Shown here: positions 37 to 11,524 of the stretch, piece after piece | Numbering within the stretch: position 1 is the first letter of the stretch | Layout of the letters: each line of letters starts with the position of its first letter | DNA from: Bacteroidota bacterium | GTDB lineage: Bacteria > Bacteroidota > Bacteroidia > Flavobacteriales > BACL11 | NCBI GenBank assembly: GCA_028408365.1 | Contig: JAOOLD010000006.1 | Location: 1 to 64,000 of the forward strand | DNA length: 64,000 nt | Reading direction: 5' to 3' | Translations under genes and position numbers: made by a program | The notes under the pieces: model-generated | Told to the model about the DNA's origin: nothing | Database searches by the model: none | The model's input: only the letters and a program-made list of their open reading frames with translations

Positions 37-2403
37 GTGAAAAAAATAAAGAAATCATTTAATAATCTCAGAACCAAAGTATTTTCAAAAAATAAATTAA
101 AGATTCTAGCATATTTTTTATTTGTTATTTCACTTTTACTTTTTGTTTCCTTCATTTCATTCTTCTTTAATTGGAAAATAGATAGCAACAATATATATTA
201 TAACAGTTGGGCTGAAGTAATATCTAACAAAGAAATAATTATAGCTAATAGTCTAGGTAAAATAGGAGCACTAATTTCTCATAAATTTATTTTTATGTGG
301 TTTGGCATATGTGCATTTACAATACCTTTTTTTATCTCTTTGCTTTCACTAAGACTATTTAAAATAAAAACTTTTGATCTTTTAAAATCTTTCACAAACA
401 TTACCCTCACATTAATTTATGTACCAGTTTTTATATCTCATTTTTTTGGAGCTACAATTTTTTCAGGTAGTATGGGGCATTATATTAGTATATTTTTAAT
501 TGATTTATTTGGCATATTTGGCTCATCCACAATTCTTATATCATTACTTATACTTTACTTATCAATAACTTTTGAAGTTGATAATCATAAATTAAAAAGG
601 TTATATGATAAATTGATTCATTTCAAAAATATGATTATGTCAATTAGAAAGAACAAGATGAAAAGTGTTGATGACAATGCTGGTGTTTTAAATGAGGTAG
701 ATACAAACTCAATTGATGAAGTAAATATTGAAGAAGAAAATGAGGACAAAAATGAAATATTACAAAAAAATATAATAGAAGACTTAGATACAGATGATAA
801 TAATATTGAGACAGACGAGCTTGATGTTAAAGTAAATGTTAATCAGAAGGAAAATATTTTATCAAGCTCAGAAATAGAAAAAAAATTAGAAGAATTAGGT
901 GATTATGACCCGACACTTGAGCTTTCCTCATATCAAATACCCAAAATTAATATTTTGAAAGATTATGGTGGTTCAGAAATCAAAATAGACAAAGAGGAGC
1001 TCGAAAATAATAAGACAAGGATTGTTGAAACTTTGGGTCATTACAATATAAAAATTGATTCTATTTCAGCAACTATCGGACCAACGATTACACTTTATGA
1101 AATTGTTCCTGAAGCAGGTACTAGAATTAATAAAATAAAAAATTTAGAAGATGATATTGCACTTAGTCTTGCAGCCGAGGGTATTAGGATTATAGCTCCA
1201 ATTCCAGGCAAAGGGACAATTGGTATAGAGGTTCCTAATAAAAATAAGAATGTAGTTTCAATGAAAGAAGTTATTTCTTCAGAAAAATTTCAAGAAAATG
1301 ATATGGCATTACCAATTGCTTTTGGAAAAACAATTTCAAATGAAACATTTGTAATTGATCTTGCTAAAATGCCTCATTTGTTGATGGCTGGAGCAACTGG
1401 ACAGGGAAAATCAGTAGGTTTAAATGTTATATTAACATCATTGCTTTACAAAAAACATCCTGCTGAGATTAAATTTGTACTTGTTGATCCTAAAAAGGTT
1501 GAGTTGACTCTGTTCAACAAAATTGAAAGACATTTTCTTGCTAAACTTCCAGATAGTGAAGACGCTATTATTACAGACACAAAAAAAGTAGTTAATACAA
1601 TTAATTCTTTATGTATTGAAATGGACGAAAGATATGAACTTTGTAAAAAGGCTCAATGCAGAAATATTAAAGAATATAACAACAAATTTATTTCAAGAAA
1701 GTTAAATCCAAACGATGGACATAAATTTCTTCCTTACATTGTATTGGTCATTGATGAATTTGCAGATCTAATAATGACAGCTGGAAAAGAAATTGAAACA
1801 CCTATATCTCGACTTGCTCAGCTTGCTCGAGCGATAGGCATTCATTTAATCGTTGCAACTCAAAGACCATCAGTAAATGTCATCACTGGACTTATCAAAG
1901 CTAACTTTCCGGCTAGAGTTGCTTTCAGAGTAACTTCAAAAATAGATTCAAGAACAATTCTTGATTCAGGGGGTGCCGATCAGCTAATTGGTATGGGTGA
2001 TATGCTAATTTCAACTGGAAGCGAAATGACAAGACTTCAATGTGCTTTCGTAGATACACCTGAAGTAGATAAATTATGTGAATTTATTGGAAGTCAAAAA
2101 GCTTATTCAGAAGCTCATATTTTACCTGAATATGTTGGAGATAGTGAGGGGTCATCATCCGCTGTTGATTTAAATGACAGAGATACATTGTTTGAAGAAG
2201 CTGCAAGAACAGTTCTTCAACATCAGTCAGGCTCTACTTCTTTGATACAAAGAAAATTAAAATTGGGATATAATAGAGCAGGTAGAATAATTGATCAGTT
2301 AGAAGCTGCTGGAATAGTTGGACCATTTGAAGGTAGCAAAGCAAGACAAGTATTAGTAAAAGATGAGCTATCTTTGCAAGAAATTTTAAATCAACTAAAT
2401 TAA
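37..2403 (+). CDS. ftsK: FtsK/SpoIIIE DNA translocase
   Basis: Membrane-anchored ATP-driven DNA pump that clears and segregates chromosome ends at the division septum. The 788-residue protein shows several N-terminal membrane segments (about residues 22-45, 80-105, 115-138, 150-180), an acidic low-complexity linker (about 210-290), then the motor. Walker A GATGQGKS is at 452-459 and Walker B VIDEFADLI at about 571-579; a winged-helix gamma domain that reads KOPS sites ends the protein. The linker is short compared with E. coli FtsK, as is usual outside enterobacteria. The start is GTG: an in-frame stop lies at 31-33 and no ATG precedes the first membrane segment. lolA follows directly after the stop codon, so the two are probably co-transcribed. 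Confidence 0.96.
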   Translation: MKKIKKSFNNLRTKVFSKNKLKILAYFLFVISLLLFVSFISFFFNWKIDSNNIYYNSWAEVISNKEIIIANSLGKIGALISHKFIFMWFGICAFTIPFFISLLSLRLFKIKTFDLLKSFTNITLTLIYVPVFISHFFGATIFSGSMGHYISIFLIDLFGIFGSSTILISLLILYLSITFEVDNHKLKRLYDKLIHFKNMIMSIRKNKMKSVDDNAGVLNEVDTNSIDEVNIEEENEDKNEILQKNIIEDLDTDDNNIETDELDVKVNVNQKENILSSSEIEKKLEELGDYDPTLELSSYQIPKINILKDYGGSEIKIDKEELENNKTRIVETLGHYNIKIDSISATIGPTITLYEIVPEAGTRINKIKNLEDDIALSLAAEGIRIIAPIPGKGTIGIEVPNKNKNVVSMKEVISSEKFQENDMALPIAFGKTISNETFVIDLAKMPHLLMAGATGQGKSVGLNVILTSLLYKKHPAEIKFVLVDPKKVELTLFNKIERHFLAKLPDSEDAIITDTKKVVNTINSLCIEMDERYELCKKAQCRNIKEYNNKFISRKLNPNDGHKFLPYIVLVIDEFADLIMTAGKEIETPISRLAQLARAIGIHLIVATQRPSVNVITGLIKANFPARVAFRVTSKIDSRTILDSGGADQLIGMGDMLISTGSEMTRLQCAFVDTPEVDKLCEFIGSQKAYSEAHILPEYVGDSEGSSSAVDLNDRDTLFEEAARTVLQHQSGSTSLIQRKLKLGYNRAGRIIDQLEAAGIVGPFEGSKARQVLVKDELSLQEILNQLN

Positions 2404-3024
2404 ATGAAATATCTGATCACTCTATTTTTATCTTTTTCAGTTACTGTTTTTAGTCAAGATGCCAGTCAAATATTAAACAGTCTTTCTGAAAAAACAAAAT
2501 CTTACAAAAATATATCAATTGATTTTGATTTTAAATATGAGAATGAACTTGAAGATATCAGAGAAAAAAAAAGTGGTAAAATTATAATTGAAAATGAAAA
2601 GTTCAAATTAGAAATTGATGATCAAATAATAGTCTGTAACGGTAAAGATCAATGGATTTATTCCAAAGAAACTAATGAAGTACAGATTTTAGAATATGAT
2701 AGAAACAATGAGTTCATGAATCCTAAAAATTTACTAAATATTTATGAAAAGGGATATAACTACAGATATGACAAAGAAATTGAAATAGATTCCAAATACT
2801 ATCACTTGATTGATTTGTTTCCAAACGAGAAAAATAATGAAATTATTAAAATTAGTCTAGCTGTAAGCAAAGATGAAAATATGGTAAAAAAGATTGAAGC
2901 TTATGAGTCAAATGGAGCAATCTACACATATACTGTTATCAAATCTAGATATAATCGTAAAAATTTAAAATTTGATTTCGATACATCAAAATATGAAAAT
3001 ATTTACATTATCGATTTAAGATAG
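2404..3024 (+). CDS. lolA: outer-membrane lipoprotein carrier LolA
   Basis: Periplasmic chaperone that takes lipoproteins from the LolCDE exporter to the outer membrane. The 206 residues start with a Sec signal peptide (hydrophobic stretch about 4-16, probable cleavage after VFSQ) and continue as the LolA-fold beta-rich domain, with the family-typical pattern of a basic KSGK strand followed by a CNGKDQWIYSKETNEV-like segment around 75-95. Length fits the family. The ATG abuts the ftsK stop codon, and the ftsK-lolA pair recurs in Flavobacteria. It is convergent with the next gene with only one base between the stops, so there is no room for a separate terminator. Confidence 0.85.
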   Translation: MKYLITLFLSFSVTVFSQDASQILNSLSEKTKSYKNISIDFDFKYENELEDIREKKSGKIIIENEKFKLEIDDQIIVCNGKDQWIYSKETNEVQILEYDRNNEFMNPKNLLNIYEKGYNYRYDKEIEIDSKYYHLIDLFPNEKNNEIIKISLAVSKDENMVKKIEAYESNGAIYTYTVIKSRYNRKNLKFDFDTSKYENIYIIDLR

Positions 3025-3025
3025 T

Positions 3026-4297
3026 TTATCTGTAAAGATTAACCTCTCCATTTCTTTTTATTATCTCACCAACACTATCTTCTATCTCAAGAGACCAAAG
3101 ATATAATCCAGCTTGTGCGTCTTCTCCTTTCCACTTTTTTGCAATGTTATTTGAATAAAATATTCTCTCACCCCATCGATTATATACAGAAAATTTGTAA
3201 CGTCTACAATTTCTAAATATGTCACCAACTGGACCAAAACTATCATTTATTAAATTTCCGTTTGGGGTAAAGGAATTTGGAACATAAAAATTGTATTTAA
3301 GCTTGATTGCGATTTGTTTTATTACGGAGTCTATACATAAATTTGAATCAGAAACTGTTAATTGAACATTAAAAACACCAGATTTTTGATAAATATGTAC
3401 TGGATTTTCAAGAGTACTAAATGATGAATCACCAAAAGACCATTTATATGAAATAATATTCTCACTAAGATTTGTAAAAAAAACAAGAGAATCATAATCA
3501 ATCATGTTGGAAGTATAAAATGAATACTCAGCAATTGGATTTAAATCAATATTTATAAATTTCACTACGCTGTCAGTACAACCTTTATTTGTTGTTATCA
3601 ATAACTTGACGTCAAATTGCTTACTAGTTTCAAAAAAATACTCAAATGATTGCCCATAAAACTTATTAGATTGAACTATCCACTCAATTGATTGAGTGCT
3701 ATCTGTTGATGAGCTATTGTTCTGAAAAATAGTAGGGTTATTTATACAATTACCAAAATAAGTAAAATCAGCAACAGGATTTTCATAATCTTTTATGAAA
3801 ATTGTATTCGAATTTGACCTGCATCCAAATTTATCTGTAACTTGAGCATAGTAGTTACCCTCGTCGGTTGCATATATTGATTCTTCCATACTACCAGTGC
3901 TCCATAGTACTTCAGAGTACATTGAATCTAGTGTAATTTTTAAACTATCTCCTTCACATATTTCATAGCTATTTGAACTAATTGTCACAAATGGATTTTC
4001 TCTTATATCAATTATTAAACTGTCTGACCCAGAACATCCATTTATATCAATTTCATCTACAATTAGTTTAAAAAAACCTATGCTATTAAATTTGACAATT
4101 ATCTCATCAGTTCCGTTACCAGAAATTAAATAGGCTATATTGTTGGATGATTCTATTTCCCAATTGTAATTAGATCCAGCACTTCCATTTATATAAAAGT
4201 TATGAATTGAATCATCAATACATACTATAACGCTATCTTTTGAAAATAACTTTCCAAAAGAGAACATTAAGACTATAATTAAAAGCCTAATGTTCAT
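3026..4297 (-). CDS. secreted PKD-domain protein with T9SS type B C-terminal signal
   Basis: Surface or secreted protein of 423 residues. It has an N-terminal signal peptide (about 1-19), two Ig/PKD-like beta-sandwich segments with paired cysteines in the first half, a recognisable PKD domain (about 260-330, with WSFGDSSFST and the GVFNVQLTVSD strand), and a gliding-motility-associated C-terminal domain from about 335 (VPNSFTPNGNLINDSFGP, VYNRWGERIF, closing GEVNLYR). That C-terminal domain is the T9SS type B export and anchoring signal. It is the last gene of a three-gene unit: the preceding gene's stop codon is followed directly by this ATG. Ligand unknown; a role in adhesion or gliding is inferred from the domain types. 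Confidence 0.85.
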   Translation of the reverse strand: MNIRLLIIVLMFSFGKLFSKDSVIVCIDDSIHNFYINGSAGSNYNWEIESSNNIAYLISGNGTDEIIVKFNSIGFFKLIVDEIDINGCSGSDSLIIDIRENPFVTISSNSYEICEGDSLKITLDSMYSEVLWSTGSMEESIYATDEGNYYAQVTDKFGCRSNSNTIFIKDYENPVADFTYFGNCINNPTIFQNNSSSTDSTQSIEWIVQSNKFYGQSFEYFFETSKQFDVKLLITTNKGCTDSVVKFINIDLNPIAEYSFYTSNMIDYDSLVFFTNLSENIISYKWSFGDSSFSTLENPVHIYQKSGVFNVQLTVSDSNLCIDSVIKQIAIKLKYNFYVPNSFTPNGNLINDSFGPVGDIFRNCRRYKFSVYNRWGERIFYSNNIAKKWKGEDAQAGLYLWSLEIEDSVGEIIKRNGEVNLYR

Positions 4298-5794
4298 TTA
4301 GTTGTGAAATATAGGTCCAGTGTTTGGTAATGGATTTACATTTATGTTGACTTGAGCATTAGCTGAGCATGAATTAGCATCAGTTCCAACTACTGAGTAA
4401 GTTATTGTAGCTGATGTTGACGGAGTAATTACTTGAGTGCTAGATGTAACTCCATTGTCCCATAAATAGCTTATCGCTCCAGTAGCACTTAAAGTTACAC
4501 TTTCTCCTATACAAATATTATTATTGTTCGCACTTACAGAAATTATTGGATCATTGTTTACATTAATAATGACTGAATCGGTTGCTAAACATGAATTATT
4601 GTTAGATACAGTTACAGTAAAAGTACTTGTTCCAGCGTTACTAAGTATTAATATTTGTGACTGACTAGTTGACCCATTGCTCCATTGATAACTGGATGCA
4701 GAACTTGATAAAAGTGTTATGGTATCATTGATACATATGTTAGTGTCAGATGCAGAAACTTGAGCTATAGGCAAACTATTTACCGATATACTAATTGTAT
4801 CTGAATTAGAGCATAAATTTACATCACTAGCTGTTACAATATAAGAGTTATTACCAATTGTTGTTGGGTTAACATACTGACTACTTGACTGAACTCCATT
4901 TCCCCATTGATAATTTAAAGCACCTGAAGCCGAAATTAAGACAGAATCTCCTAAACAAATTGAATTAAAAGCTGAACTAGCAACGACATTTGGGAGTTGA
5001 TCAACCTGAACACTGATTGAAGCTGTATCCAAACAACCGTTTACATCTGAACCTATTACAACAAAATTATTTAGTCCAGATACATCAGCTATTATCCCTT
5101 GACTTGAACTAAGAACACCATTGAACCAATTATATGAGGATGCTCCACTAGCAGTCAAAAAAAGTGAATCATTAAGACAAACATTCGAACTTGAAGCAGT
5201 TAGGGCTATGCTAGGCTGAGCAACAATATCTAAGCTTATTGAGGCATACTTAGATTCGCATCCAGAACTATTTGTCTCTGTTACATAATATACATACTGG
5301 TTAATTGCTGTTTGACCAGTGTTATATGTGTTACCACTAAAGATGGCTGAACTTCCTAAAGTGTCAACATACCAATTAATATTTGAGCCAGGAACAAATA
5401 AAGAAGAAATAGGCTGATTGACACAACTTGTGATATTGCTTATTGGACTTATTGCTGAAGGTTGAGACACAAGATTGACACTTACAATGCTTGGTATTCC
5501 TTCACAACCATTAGAGTCAATTTCAACAACCTGAAGGTCATAAGTTCCAATTGCTCCATTCCACAAAATACTAACACTATCATTTTGTGGAGAAACTAAT
5601 GAATCCATTGTTCCAAAGCTTGTAGGTGCAGAAAGTACTTTCCATTGGTATGTTGAATTTGAATTAGCTAAAACTTTATAAGGTTCTACGCTACCCCAAC
5701 AAACAGTTTGTGTTGGTGAGGTACTTGTTTGTGAGTATAAATTTTGAAAAAATAATAATGCTAAGAATGAAATAAGTATTTGTTTTGTGTTCAT
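4298..5794 (-). CDS. secreted Ig-like repeat protein ending in an IFHN motif
   Basis: 498-residue exported protein of unknown ligand. After a signal peptide (about 1-21) and two divergent Ig-like segments, residues about 190-490 hold four tandem repeats of roughly 75 residues. Each carries an N(I/V)C(I/L)(N/G)(D/E)S core, a Y(Q/N/L)W(S/G/F/D)NG strand and a closing (N/D)xNxC motif, as in adhesin-type Bacteroidota surface proteins. It has no T9SS type A or B domain. Instead it ends in LPNTGPIFHN, and the upstream neighbour ends similarly (LLIYHN). The stop codon is immediately followed by the ATG of the type B cargo gene, which suggests the three proteins are made together and may form one surface assembly (inference). 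Confidence 0.7.
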   Translation of the reverse strand: MNTKQILISFLALLFFQNLYSQTSTSPTQTVCWGSVEPYKVLANSNSTYQWKVLSAPTSFGTMDSLVSPQNDSVSILWNGAIGTYDLQVVEIDSNGCEGIPSIVSVNLVSQPSAISPISNITSCVNQPISSLFVPGSNINWYVDTLGSSAIFSGNTYNTGQTAINQYVYYVTETNSSGCESKYASISLDIVAQPSIALTASSSNVCLNDSLFLTASGASSYNWFNGVLSSSQGIIADVSGLNNFVVIGSDVNGCLDTASISVQVDQLPNVVASSAFNSICLGDSVLISASGALNYQWGNGVQSSSQYVNPTTIGNNSYIVTASDVNLCSNSDTISISVNSLPIAQVSASDTNICINDTITLLSSSASSYQWSNGSTSQSQILILSNAGTSTFTVTVSNNNSCLATDSVIINVNNDPIISVSANNNNICIGESVTLSATGAISYLWDNGVTSSTQVITPSTSATITYSVVGTDANSCSANAQVNINVNPLPNTGPIFHN

Positions 5795-5804
5795 AATTTT
5801 AATT

Positions 5805-8651
5805 TTAGTTGTGATATATTAATAGATTGTTCATGTTATTTATTGGTACAATAATCCCTTGGTTTGTTGGTGCACCCCATTCACTTGGTCTACACCCACT
5901 CTTTTCTCTTATTTTAACTTTAAATTCTGTTGTTTCAGTAATTGGACCATAAGTTATAGGATTTAAGTTTCCCCATCCGTTACTATTCGAAGTAATATCT
6001 ATCCAATTATTATTGCTTAGTGTCTTTTTTTGGAATTTAAATTGTGTGATATTTGGTGATGATGTTACCGCGAAAATAGTTAAAGTATCATTTTCGCAAG
6101 CTGGTAGGGGGTTTACAATTATGTTGATAACGCTTGATCGTTGATTAACCTCTACTCTTACAGTATCAGTGGACGAACATAGTCCGTTTCCATAGGTTAC
6201 TGTAAATATAGTATCAGAAATTAATGAAAGTCCATTTACAAACTGTGGATTAGAAATATTAGAGTTAACAAAGAAATTAGATGGTTGCCACTGAGTTGAT
6301 GATGATGCTAATGAACTAAATGATTGTGATGTTAAATTATTTGGTTGACCTCCATAGCAAATAGTTTGATTTGAATCGGCAAAAACACTTATTAAAGCAG
6401 ATTCTCCAACTTGAACTGAATCAACAGAAAAACAACCATTTTGGTCAGTATAGCTAGCTGAATAGACTCCAGGGCTCAAATTATATATTATAGTATCAAT
6501 AATTCCATTACTCCATGTAAAATTATTTGTTGGACTATTTGATGAGTTAATAAATATTGTGTAATCCTCTGTCTCTCCGTAATATGGAGGAGAGAAATTA
6601 CTTCCTATGTCACAAGGGCCTATTGCAGATAGATCTGAATTGTTCTCATATTGAGAAACAATTCTTAGCCTAGTATTACCGCTAATTGCAAATGAAGGTA
6701 CATTTAGTGTAATTGTGTAAAGGGATGAATTGTTAAAGCTTAAGTCTGATATATACTCACCATTATCATAAAAATCTCCATCTCTGTTCCAATCAACATA
6801 AACTTTTCCTCCAAAATTAATATATCCTAGAGACGATTGAAGATTTATATTAATATTATAGCTAGATCCAGCTGTAACATCAGCGATTAAATTAGTATGA
6901 TTTGAATACGAAGCATTAGTGAAGGCTGTATTGTTATTTATGCTAAAATTATCACCATTAAGACTTACGTTAGAAACATTATAAAATGAACTATCAAATG
7001 GTCTACTAACGCAGTATTGATTATAGTTTTGTACTTGAGATATATATGCAAAACTAGAATCACAGATTGAGTCAACAACTTGAATATTCAAATCGGTAAT
7101 CCGATAAGTATTTATTATTATACTATCTGTAGTTTGACAATTATTTACATCGGATGCAGTAACAGAAATTGTTAATGTATCATCTATATTTATATTTTGA
7201 CTTGTAATCGTACCAGAAATTGGATTTATTTGTCCATAATTCCAGTCAAATAAATTAGCTGTAGCTGAGCTTGCACTAACTAATATTGTATCTCCTGGAC
7301 AAACATTATTAGTTGGTGATGATAAAACTAAATTTGGTGATTGATTTAGAACTATTTTGAAATATTCTCTTTTTTTAAAAGTTCTTCCTCCCTCATCAAC
7401 CAATCTCTCCATCCAAATAATAGAGGATGCATTCAAGTTAGCACTAGCAATTGTTAGTTCAGCGGTTGTAGTAGTATCACCTGTGCTCCAAACATAAATA
7501 TCTTCAACCTCCATTAAAAATCTTAAAGCACTGCTTTTACCAAGATCGTTCCATAAGCCAGCATTAATATTATTTGCAGCGTACATTGATGCATAGTGTT
7601 CATCTACAGAATTGTTGGGCTCTCCCGAACTCCATCTGCTAACATAGACAGGTTTTCCATTGGTCCACTGCCATCCACCAGAGGGTTCTAAAAAAGAAGA
7701 ACTATTACAATTTTGATATGCTCCAATCCATCTATTGCGATTAGCTTGAACATTATTTAGTATAAAATTATTTTCTGCTGTTGTTTCTATGTGAGATAGA
7801 TGAGCACCAATAGATTGACAGACATAGTCAGCGTTGATCCAATTAAGAGATCCAAAAACATTTCCTCGAGATCTATAATGATAAGTTGTATAGTTTATAT
7901 CTGTGTAGGCAACTGGACTACTGAAGTCATTAATACCGTCATTATCTATATCTCGTAATTGTGAAAAAGGCAGAGCTGATGATGTACCAACAAATGTTAT
8001 TGAATCAGCGTTACTGCAAACTTCAATAGTTTTTCTACTAACATTATCGTAACCAAATCTTGTCATTGGTACTTCAATGTCATATGTGCTAGCAGCTAAT
8101 GTACATTCGCTATTTTTTGAACCATATGAACCACCGTCTCCATAATCAAAATATGTATTACCTAAGTTTTGAGTCATATCATTATAGTAATCCATAACGG
8201 TATAAAAATTATACGTATTATACTCGCAATTATTAAAACAAATACTAACCTCTAAATTATTTGAGGCCTGCTTTAAATAAGGAATATCTAAAAAAATATC
8301 ATTCCATTCACCTTGTGTTGGAGCAAAATTACCAAAGTACACAGTTTGCCATGCAGATGAACCTTCTCTAAATTTAATTTCTAAATCGTACATTACTTGA
8401 TATCGATAGTCATAAAAAGAGCCTCTATCTTGAATTTCAAAACCTATAGAAAAGATTGTATCAGCAAGAAAACTTACATTTTGATATGTGATATCGGAGC
8501 GCTCATCTTCATAAAAGACATTGAAAGGAAAACTTCCACTATTTCCAGAGTTGAAAGTAGAAGTATATACATAGTTTTGAGATATCGCTTTATCACAAAA
8601 TATTACACAAATGCAAATAAATGTAAGTAATATGTATAACTTTTTGTACAA
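5805..8651 (-). CDS. large secreted protein with C-type lectin and GEVED domains
   Basis: About 948 residues. Signal peptide (LLTFICICVIF core), a beta-rich N-terminal region, then a C-type lectin-like domain at roughly residues 255-385 (ADYVCQSIGAHLSHIETTAE, GGWQWTNGKPVYVSRWSSGEPNN, LWNDLG). Next come an Ig-like segment and a GEVED domain near 600-710 (VYVDWNRDGDFYDNGEYISD, GETEDYT). No T9SS C-terminal domain is present; it ends NLLIYHN. The open frame extends to a TTG at 8675, but a promoter-like TATATTTG lies over that codon at 8673-8680, so I prefer the TTG at 8651, directly before the basic part of the signal peptide. No ATG is available. Probably binds carbohydrate or a surface (inference). 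Confidence 0.72.
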   Translation of the reverse strand: MYKKLYILLTFICICVIFCDKAISQNYVYTSTFNSGNSGSFPFNVFYEDERSDITYQNVSFLADTIFSIGFEIQDRGSFYDYRYQVMYDLEIKFREGSSAWQTVYFGNFAPTQGEWNDIFLDIPYLKQASNNLEVSICFNNCEYNTYNFYTVMDYYNDMTQNLGNTYFDYGDGGSYGSKNSECTLAASTYDIEVPMTRFGYDNVSRKTIEVCSNADSITFVGTSSALPFSQLRDIDNDGINDFSSPVAYTDINYTTYHYRSRGNVFGSLNWINADYVCQSIGAHLSHIETTAENNFILNNVQANRNRWIGAYQNCNSSSFLEPSGGWQWTNGKPVYVSRWSSGEPNNSVDEHYASMYAANNINAGLWNDLGKSSALRFLMEVEDIYVWSTGDTTTTAELTIASANLNASSIIWMERLVDEGGRTFKKREYFKIVLNQSPNLVLSSPTNNVCPGDTILVSASSATANLFDWNYGQINPISGTITSQNINIDDTLTISVTASDVNNCQTTDSIIINTYRITDLNIQVVDSICDSSFAYISQVQNYNQYCVSRPFDSSFYNVSNVSLNGDNFSINNNTAFTNASYSNHTNLIADVTAGSSYNININLQSSLGYINFGGKVYVDWNRDGDFYDNGEYISDLSFNNSSLYTITLNVPSFAISGNTRLRIVSQYENNSDLSAIGPCDIGSNFSPPYYGETEDYTIFINSSNSPTNNFTWSNGIIDTIIYNLSPGVYSASYTDQNGCFSVDSVQVGESALISVFADSNQTICYGGQPNNLTSQSFSSLASSSTQWQPSNFFVNSNISNPQFVNGLSLISDTIFTVTYGNGLCSSTDTVRVEVNQRSSVINIIVNPLPACENDTLTIFAVTSSPNITQFKFQKKTLSNNNWIDITSNSNGWGNLNPITYGPITETTEFKVKIREKSGCRPSEWGAPTNQGIIVPINNMNNLLIYHN

Positions 8652-8699: not shown

Positions 8700-10004
8700 T
8701 TACTCTGTTGTCATTACTACTGGAATAAGTTCGTAGTCTTCATACTTGACAAGTTGACAATTAGTATTTACAAATCCGTGATTAAACCGATATCTTTCAA
8801 AATTAAATTGATTAAAATCTGTCAAAAAATGAAATACAATTTGATATGACAATGCAGAATATTTATCTACGGTCATATTATATTCCTTTTCATATTTTTT
8901 TTGAAAATCAAGAAAAAAACCAGAATTATTATTAAAATAAAATGGATCTAAAAAATGTACATTTAATTTCATTAAGTTATTGATATCCAAATTATCAAAG
9001 TCTTTCCAATTACTTAGTCCGTATATAGTAAAAGATGAATCAATACTGCCTAATGATCCAAGTACTTTGGAAACGAAGACTTTATCGAAAGAGGGAATAA
9101 CAACCACCTGATTGGAATCAAAGGTTTGTCTAATGCTATCAACGTGAGTAAAAATCAATTTGTTTTTATAATGAATAATATTATTTTTTCTGAGTTGATT
9201 AGAAATATAGCTAGAGTAACTTTTGTCTTTTTCCTCAAAAACGATTATGATTTTTTCATCTTTATACTTCTTTAGTTGCTTTACAAGCAATTCTGATTGG
9301 TTTTTGAAAGGAGTATTAATTTGATAAACATTATTTTGGCCCGAAATTTGCTCTGTATTTCTTGAAAAAGGAGAAACAATTTTAAGATTATTGTTATTTT
9401 TTAATTTTTTAGCGACCAAATTAATGTTTGACGAATATAAGGGGCCAATAATTATATCCATAAGTGCTAAGTCGTTAGAACTAATTAATTGCTCAATAGC
9501 TGCACTATCATTTTCACTATCGTAAACAAAAACATTAATTTTTTTTCCTAAAGATGAGATTGAATCTAAGGCTAATTGCGCTCCTTGAAAAAAAGAAAGT
9601 GAAACTTTTGATCTTTCATAAATAAAGTTATTTGCATCCTCTACATCGTCAAAAGATTTAGATAAAGTATCATTTCTTGAAACGTAAAATGGTAAAATAA
9701 TAGCTATGTTTATTTTTGAGGAGTCAAGTTTTAGTCTTTTGAATTGAAAATCTCTAATTACATCTCCACTATCTAGCGGAATGTATAAAAGCTGCTTATA
9801 GTACAAATCACTATTTATATCATTATGCTCAATAATATCTTTAATACTAACTCTGTATTTTTTAGAGATTTTGCTAAAACTATCATTATTTCCAACAATG
9901 TGCTTGATATAAAATTGATTACCAACCTGAATAGTATCATTGGCAAATATGTTCACTGATAATATTAAAAATAAAATTATTATAAATCTTCTTGCTATTC
10001 CCAT
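8700..10004 (-). CDS. LysM and periplasmic-binding-like domain protein
   Basis: 434-residue exported protein of unknown exact role. Signal peptide 1-21, one LysM peptidoglycan-binding module (about 32-78: [30 protein letters not shown]), then from about 95 a type I periplasmic-binding-protein fold ([35 protein letters not shown]) like that of amino-acid binding proteins and LpoA. No transporter genes are nearby, so a cell-wall sensing or synthase-stimulating role is as likely as solute uptake (inference). The ATG overlaps the end of guaA by ten bases, which implies translational coupling; this pairing with guaA occurs in other flavobacteria. Confidence 0.75.
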
Positions 10005-11524
10005 TCTATCGTTGCTGGTGGTTTAGAACTAATATCATAAACTACTCTGTTAATACCCTTAACATTATTTATGATTTCATTGGATACTAATGATAAAAAA
10101 TCATATGGAAGATGAACCCAATCTGCTGTCATTCCATCAGTTGAACTAACAGCTCTCAAGGCAACTGTTTTCTCATAGGTTCTCTCATCACCCATTACAC
10201 CAACAGAATTAACTGGTAGTAGCATTGCACCAGCTTGCCATACCTCGTTATACAAGTTATGTTTTTTTAGACTTTCAATAAATATATAATCTACTTCTTG
10301 AAGCATTTTAACCTTTTCTTCAGTAATATCACCTAAAATTCTAATTGCAAGGCCAGGACCTGGAAATGGATGTCTCATTAACATTTTATTACTAATTTTC
10401 AAAGCCTTACCTATCTTTCTAACTTCGTCTTTAAATAAAGTATTCATCGGTTCCAAGAGCTTCAGCTTCATGTATTCAGGAAGTCCACCTACGTTGTGAT
10501 GAGATTTAATAGTTGAGGAAGGTCCTCCTGTGGCAGAAATAGACTCAATCACATCAGGATAAATTGTTCCTTGCGCCAACCATTTTACACCTTTTATTTT
10601 TGATGCCTCATAATCAAAAACTTCAATAAATTTATTTCCAATTATTTTTCTTTTCTTTTCAGGGTCTGTAATTCCCTTTAATGCGCTGTAGAATTCATCT
10701 TTTGCGTCAACTCCTTTAACATTGAGACCCATTTCTTTGTAACTATCTAATACTTGTTGAAACTCATATTTTCTTAATAATCCATTATCAACAAAAACAC
10801 AGTTTAATTGGCTTCCAATTGCCTTGTTTATTAGAAATGCAGTAACTGTAGAATCAACTCCTCCTGAAATACCCAACACAACTTTATCTTTTTGGATCAT
10901 ATCTCTTATATCTTTAATCTTTGACTGAACAAAAGATTCTGAAGTCCAATATTGTTTAAAGCCACAAATATCAACTAAAAAGTTTTTTATTAAAGTTGAC
11001 CCTTGAGTACTATGATAAACCTCAGGATGAAATTGCAATCCAAAAGCAGTTTTTTTTCTTAACTCATATCCAGCTACTCTGACATCTTTAGTTGAGGCTA
11101 TAACATCTGAATTTTTAGGCAGATTTACTATTGTATCAGCATGACTCATCCATACTTGAGAGTTTAAATCAATTCCTTTCATAAGTTGTGAAATTTTGGA
11201 TACATAGCATAAATTTGCCCTTCCATATTCTCTAAGCTTTGACTTTGTGACTTTTCCTCCGTGTTCTTTAGCTATAAACTGTGCTCCATAGCACAACCCT
11301 AGCACTGGAATTTTACCAATAATTTCTTTTAAATCAATTATTGGAGAATCTATTTCATTTACTGAAAATGGACTACCTGAAAGTATTATGGCTTTGGCTG
11401 AGGAAAGATTTAAATCCTTATTGTAAGGGAAAATTTCACAGTAAACATTTAGTTCTCTGATTCTTCTTGCAATTAGTTGAGTGTATTGAGATCCAAAATC
11501 TAATATTATTACTTTTTCAATCAT
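9995..11524 (-). CDS. guaA: GMP synthase (glutamine-hydrolysing)
   Basis: Converts XMP, ATP and glutamine to GMP in the cytosol, the last step of guanine nucleotide synthesis. The 509-residue protein has a class I glutamine amidotransferase domain with triad Cys78 (GLCYG), His166 and Glu168 (QFHPEVY). An ATP-pyrophosphatase domain follows with SGGVDS at 220-225, then the dimerisation domain ending in PPATIEWE, the normal GuaA terminus. Full length. It overlaps bshC upstream by eight bases and the LysM gene downstream by ten, so it sits inside a translationally coupled operon. Confidence 0.98.

Follow-up and report, generated by a model that had tools for sequence, protein, structure and literature searches.

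A conserved short C-terminal tail on two secreted proteins encoded beside a type B cargo gene in Flavobacteriales

Cargo of the type IX secretion system (T9SS) is normally recognised by a folded C-terminal domain (CTD) on each protein. We analysed a 64,000-nucleotide stretch from a Bacteroidota bacterium (Flavobacteriales, BACL11; GenBank assembly GCA_028408365.1, contig JAOOLD010000006.1, positions 1 to 64,000; hereafter the window) that carries a minus-strand operon of three genes: gene 1 (8651-5805), gene 2 (5794-4298) and gene 3 (4297-3026). Gene 3 encodes a type B T9SS cargo protein. Genes 1 and 2 encode secreted proteins without a sorting domain, and both carry a conserved short C-terminal tail that is tied to this operon. 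The features are as follows, with signal peptides judged by eye; the start codon of gene 1 is TTG, at either 8651 or 8675.

5805..8651, minus strand: gene 1, secreted adhesin subunit with a signal peptide, C-type lectin (Lectin_C) and GEVED domains, without a T9SS sorting domain (profile matches)
5808..5825, minus strand: gene 1 C-terminal tail LLIYHN, usual orthologue form P-I-x-H-N (sequence, orthologues)
4298..5794, minus strand: gene 2, secreted array of immunoglobulin (Ig)-like repeats (Ig_7), without a T9SS sorting domain (profile matches)
4301..4336, minus strand: gene 2 C-terminal tail NPLPNTGPIFHN, in orthologues P-x-(T/P)-G-P-I-x-H-(N/W/F), with IFHN modelled as a strand
4295..4300, minus strand: gene 2 TAA stop, followed directly and in frame by the gene 3 ATG (4297)
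3026..4297, minus strand: gene 3, type B cargo with an N-terminal PKD_6-like domain, PKD domains and a CHU_C sorting domain
4013..4240, minus strand: N-terminal PKD_6-like domain of gene 3 (range approximate; profile match starts at position 12), proposed acceptor of the gene 2 tail
3071..3283, minus strand: CHU_C / type B sorting domain of gene 3

The tail in the window and among relatives

An earlier note on this DNA had claimed that the products of genes 1 and 2 share a short I(F/Y)HN terminus, lack a T9SS domain and lie tightly spaced ahead of a gene with the type B signal, and these observations were borne out. The two proteins end ...NNLLIYHN and TGPIFHN, with CAC AAC TAA closing both genes in frame; the gene 1 stop lies 10 bases before the gene 2 ATG, and the gene 2 TAA abuts the gene 3 ATG with a gap of 0 bases. 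Neither protein matched a type A or type B sorting model at E <= 1. Gene 3 matched PF13585 (CHU_C) with 44.8 bits, over the cut-off of 27, and the NCBIfam type B model TIGR04131 with 28.4 bits, under the cut-off of 35, which is exceeded by gene 3 counterparts in two families of relatives (58.6 in family f8, locus L172; 44.4 in family f9, locus L204). Tail aside, the two proteins have no significant similarity to each other over their last 150 residues in the window (best E 0.051) or, likewise, at locus L122. A shared last domain therefore does not explain the shared tail in either case. The DNA pattern for IFHN or IYHN followed by TAA occurs 4 times in the host genome (1.47 Mb, 86% complete), versus 3 times for a reversed-pattern control; genes 1 and 2 are the sole real gene ends with TAA, the remaining two matches having 4 open residues before the stop.

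Relatives keep the locus order guaA, LysM gene, gene 1, gene 2, type B gene 3, lolA, ftsK, and the trio lies between guaA-LysM and lolA-ftsK in the regions read from families f1 and f9, contig ends permitting. The syntenic flanks in the window are these.

8700..10004, minus strand: LysM-domain gene, with a weak periplasmic-binding-protein match
9995..11524, minus strand: guaA
2404..3024, plus strand: lolA
37..2403, plus strand: FtsK-like translocase (best NCBIfam match FtsK, under cut-off)

Starting sets of 28 proteins for gene 1 and 29 for gene 2 gave an end-anchored alignment of 25 non-redundant tails per gene once near-duplicates (three for gene 1, four for gene 2) had been removed. Contig ends truncate some of the gene 2 rows, and the alignment leaves out gene 2 of genomes G141 (GPIWHNP) and G156 (tail present), two fused f9 genes and all f8 rows. 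The usual ending is P-I-x-H-N (or Y) for gene 1 and (T/P)-G-P-I-x-H-(N/W/F) for gene 2. Isoleucine occupies position -4 in 25/25 tails of each gene, proline position -5 in 20/25 gene 1 and 24/25 gene 2 tails, and histidine position -2 in 21/25 and 22/25, respectively. Glycine at -6 and proline at -9 are both found in all 25 gene 2 tails, the last residue of gene 1 is N in 23/25, and position -3 is the most variable among the last seven. Mean identity over the last five residues is 67% for gene 1 and 66% for gene 2, while over the 60 residues ahead of the tail, compared ungapped, it is 23% and 22%. Conservation of the tail is thus well supported, and the retention of isoleucine and histidine around a variable -3 position would fit a strand with one buried face. 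The I(F/Y)HN motif of the earlier note is real in this genus and too narrow for its relatives, being one genus's version of a broader conserved unit.

Tail codons vary synonymously at G, P, I, H and N, indicating that selection acts on the protein. A stop and start as close as those in the window might favour the idea that the conservation lies at the nucleotide level and serves translational coupling to the next gene; however, the synonymous variation already disfavours this, and at L172 in family f8 what comes after the last, tailed gene is a convergent one, so that we regard coupling as extremely improbable. The suggestion that the common end is a remnant of recombination between repeat genes is also unlikely. 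From genome to genome the region before the gene 2 tail consists of visibly different kinds of sequence, with a different last domain, and yet the tail is retained; outside the tail the two gene ends are not similar; and the codons vary.

Endings differ more in family f9. Four of its seven genomes end PPPI(V/I)(T/S)N (gene 1) and GPII(F/Y)N (gene 2) or similarly; in another the endings are PIIHN and GQIQHN, and the two genomes with genes 1 and 2 fused have (A/G)AIGF. Among the matches listed, the intact gene 3 orthologues that we followed up (26 genomes in f1, 7 in f9, and 4 copies in 3 genomes in f8) all have a tailed or fused partner. Three f1 genomes are special cases: G141 ends GPIWHNP in ambiguous sequence, G239 has gene 2 on another contig, and in G194 gene 2 looks broken, its final piece retaining the tail. 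In genus g5 (G204 and G099), gene 3 is a decayed CHU_C remnant located elsewhere (L213:5722-6108 and L214:3513-3899) with no tailed partner in the stretch read; these remnants are excluded from the count of intact orthologues. At four f9 loci the conserved site also includes, immediately upstream of gene 1, a further large gene whose product has a type-B-like end (L202:11705-16159, L203:543-5042, L205:1-4887 and L206:490-4968).

A second site was found in family f8, genus g37 (L171-L173). The cluster there encodes a 212-213 aa protein with weak Ig/PKD matches that ends TGAI(F/Y)H(Y/F), a 347-351 aa type B protein with 23-24% identity to gene 3 of the window, and a 312-413 aa protein that ends GPI(W/Y)HY. 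In G033 this operon is present as a tandem duplicate (L171:7919-13710).

Association of the tail with one operon type

The host genome's 15 other CHU_C matches, 13 of which exceed the Pfam cut-off, lie in the stretches L187-L201; of the 141 complete open reading frames (ORFs) there that reach 100 aa, none has an end of this type. Among the best 80 of at least 583 gene 3 relatives in named genomes, counting as neighbours no more than two same-strand ORFs upstream and one downstream, a tailed neighbour was absent at 79 loci, 20 of which show no upstream same-strand ORF. The only one of these 80 loci with a gene 3 orthologue plus a tailed neighbour was L217, from the Cryomorphaceae metagenome-assembled genome NIOZ-UU109. 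The 80 loci contain 855 complete ORFs with 80 aa or more, and three of these end (I/V/L/M)-x-H-(N/W/Y/F), namely L217 gene 2 and the ORFs at L237 and L281, whose ends look like chance. These two surveys rule out a general type B tag, and the enrichment beside type B genes at large that the earlier note had anticipated was not found (0/141 ORFs; 0/79 other loci of gene 3 relatives).

A partly motif-chosen set of 1,764 distinct ORFs longer than 150 aa, from loci of at least 5 kb, contained 46 (P/L)I-x-H-(N/W/Y/F) ends. In the same set the related motif (G/P/A)(P/A)I-x-H-(N/W/Y/F) occurred 36 times at the C-terminus; 4 further occurrences lay elsewhere, including one that falls just one residue short of the end. 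A looser search gave 68 tail-like ORF sequences, some being one gene cut differently, and all except L237 lie in these operons; lowering the length limit added one chance-like end, L281. The tail belongs to one operon type.

Broader pattern searches gave a similar picture. A class-wide TGPIxH-type pattern, run in each of two versions against 395 genomes, of which 15 besides the host belong to the order, matched only the window in its first version; the second version gave four matches, and none of the three outside the window terminates an ORF that reaches 100 aa. An order-wide pattern matched in 46 of 296 genomes, and at the 29 loci examined (L142-L170) long-frame ends occurred in f1 and in three f8 genomes (L165, L166 and L169), the others being short frames. 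A further match of this pattern, in G105, is the fragment of the tailed f8 gene described below. The plasmid collection gave no match. A family-wide excess of the literal I(F/Y)HN-TAA pattern was rejected as out-of-frame: among the matches listed, the frame before the stop is shorter than 60 residues in 38 of the 40 regions read, and just two same-genus regions hold real gene ends. Some out-of-frame MI(Y/F)HN-stop strings are paired and near-identical, 408 to 828 bases apart (L035:8169-9011, L036:718-1140 and L037:3811-4233), in a setting that we take to resemble repeated fasciclin-type domains. Searches of the open-licence PubMed Central literature brought up no paper whose title or abstract opening describes such a tail, and the conserved tail is apparently undescribed.

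This distribution bears on two further explanations. The translocon or a shuttle protein could recognise the tail as a minimal T9SS signal, in which case genes 1 and 2 would be exported independently. The tail does lie at the extreme C-terminus of secreted proteins that have no known CTD, and the host genome encodes SprA and five PorP/SprF-like matches, all five off the window contig (C51) and none next to the trio. However, in the loci read the tail is confined to these operons rather than shared with other secreted proteins, and known CTDs are whole domains; we consider a minimal signal unlikely. Alternatively, the tail could be recognised by an enzyme that processes or anchors the proteins, for example a protease, a sortase-like or a PDZ-type protein. 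This would suit a free C-terminus and the near-constant last residue of gene 1, but restriction to one operon type and the lack of a recognised dedicated enzyme gene in the conserved neighbourhood make it quite improbable.

The tail as a candidate docking strand

A tag for assembly with the type B partner, as the earlier note had proposed, fits the observations best, the tails being kept across two families at one locus and occurring again in a third family elsewhere beside a gene-3-like type B gene; the part that did not stand is its generality for type B neighbours. We judge it probable that the tail docks to a partner in some manner. We propose that the trio would form one surface adhesin made of three separately secreted pieces, with gene 1 as an exchangeable binding head, gene 2 as a stalk of Ig-like repeats and gene 3 as a base with the type B signal. 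The tail would act after Sec export as a docking strand, each tail giving the first (A) strand missing from the N-terminal Ig/PKD-like domain of the next piece, from gene 1 into gene 2 and from gene 2 into gene 3, and gene 3 would take the assembled chain through the T9SS and anchor it. For this fuller version, with strand donation and a carrier, we see the chances as evenly balanced. Export together with gene 3 would follow by analogy from the roles of type B CTDs, as reported in PMC10202324, PMC9143113 and PMC10994853.

Evidence for a strand comes from the f9 genus in which genes 1 and 2 are fused (L207). Residues 172-423 of gene 1 from L202 align with residues 603-856 of the fusion (35%, E 9e-54), and residues 26-335 of gene 2 from L202 align with residues 865-1171 (43%, E 7e-68). 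The gene 1 end PPPI aligns to DAPEI, 8 residues before the first domain of gene 2 starts. Lead lengths point the same way. For in-line leads within genes 2 and 3, the distance from the linker proline to the first cysteine is 10-12 residues in 78/96. In gene 3 the first cysteine of the first domain follows the assumed signal-peptide site (xQ) after 4-5 residues in 21/26 (5 not assigned), and the gene 2 tail extends 8 residues past its proline in 13/19 and 6 in the rest, where a later proline is counted. The tail of gene 2 plus the N-terminus of gene 3 therefore resembles one lead cut in two. The short lead of gene 3 and a PKD_6 match that begins at profile position 12 would be compatible with an acceptor without a strand of its own, a reading to which the profile join test described below lends no support.

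We also predicted the structure of a read-through construct with AlphaFold2, in which the gene 2 end and tail were followed by the gene 3 signal peptide as linker and the gene 3 start. The model had a mean predicted local distance difference test score (pLDDT) of 84.9 (76-81 in the other four models) and a predicted template modelling score of 0.62, with a pLDDT of 77 for the tail block and a disordered linker. IFHN (167-170) formed a strand near the expected place of the next repeat's A strand. It lies 76 residues beyond the point at which the previous A strand begins, and the repeat length in this array is 73-74 residues.

Both the fusion alignment and the model put the tail in the position of the next repeat's first strand, as would also be expected if it were a functionless leftover of a lost repeat after one long adhesin gene was split. 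The L283 locus, where guaA and a LysM-like gene are followed by a single type B gene of 893 aa, is consistent with such a split. A leftover would hardly stay near-invariant while the prior 60 residues fall to about 22% identity, and we consider this very unlikely. The L283 region (1897-7788) holds guaA-like and LysM-like genes, named by position and end sequence, and then the 893-aa PKD-CHU_C protein where f1 and f9 have the trio, a layout from which the trio may have derived or into which it may have fused as one chain.

Several results weigh against the docking-strand proposal. Histidine is missing in six of the seven f9 genomes. In family f8 the type B gene precedes one of the tailed genes. 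Relatedness between the two tailed proteins there extends over about 186 residues (30%), so that their tails may share one origin and need not be independent. G105, also of genus g37, keeps a tail-bearing fragment with no type B gene in the stretch read; this fragment (L174:8944-9153) corresponds to the last 57 residues of the third protein, is 67% identical and ends GPIWHY, and other genes occupy the site. Neither the fragment nor the f8 relatedness changes the odds, the shift being too small. Gene 2 proteins mostly have a lead of 8-9 residues (12/19 by script, two more by eye); the first domain of gene 2 may thus already own an A strand, and the acceptor case is stronger for gene 3. The structural model names no pairing partner for IFHN and had two alignment rows over the tail and the gene 3 N-domain, and a control prediction of the gene 2 end reached a pLDDT of only 30. 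A join test with profile hidden Markov models was also unsupportive: the PKD_6 score of the window gene 3 N-domain was 21.3 alone, 21.6 with the gene 2 tail, 21.0 with the gene 1 tail and 21.7 with a reversed tail; the L122 domain scored 18.3 alone, 19.4 with the tail and 18.9 with the reversed tail, and f8 gave no match.

If the proposal is true, a short tail lets proteins without a CTD join a type B carrier; partners would then be missing from lists of T9SS substrates, and signal-less secreted proteins in the neighbourhood of such type B genes would have an explanation. The tail would also make binding heads easy to swap: gene 1 orthologues bear differing domains before the conserved end (C-type lectin, L-type lectin, CUB or SprB repeats), and an f9 fusion bears a P-domain.

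Comparison with known systems

One close parallel is the SprB-type T9SS type B adhesins of Flavobacterium johnsoniae with PorP/SprF, which resemble gene 3 in having a CHU_C/type B domain beside repeat-rich secreted proteins. According to PMC9143113, type B proteins have been found bound to PorP-like proteins for anchorage. Unlike the SprB-SprF unit, the window operon has no adjacent PorP/SprF. Its partners without a CTD bear a conserved tail, a feature compared here without reference to the termini of SprC and SprD. The tail shares with T9SS CTDs, as described in PMC10202324, a C-terminal position on secreted proteins; unlike types A and B, which are folded domains, it is no longer than about 12 residues, and the models of neither type match genes 1 and 2.

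In donor-strand fimbriae (Escherichia coli type 1; proposed for Porphyromonas gingivalis Mfa), an incomplete Ig-like domain is completed by a neighbour's strand, as set out in PMC4789730. By contrast, the donor proposed here would be some 8 residues at a protein's C-terminus, in the context of a T9SS, and for the window trio no chaperone, usher or protease step is known, no dedicated search having been made.

The eight best structural matches of the construct were all fragments of GhpA, the Aureispira grappling hook protein (VIA-align Z 12.6-14.4, root-mean-square deviation about 8 in seven of the eight; Foldseek E 9e-18 to 3e-13), and this common Ig/PKD-array fold shows no shared function. 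GhpA is a continuous array, the matched fragments belonging to one very long chain, whereas the window chain is split over three genes. Subunits held together end to end by short donor strands at their C-termini, with those that lack a sorting domain crossing the outer membrane on one type B subunit, would make a modular, non-covalent counterpart to giant single-chain adhesins, a generalisation that we offer tentatively and hold to be somewhat doubtful.

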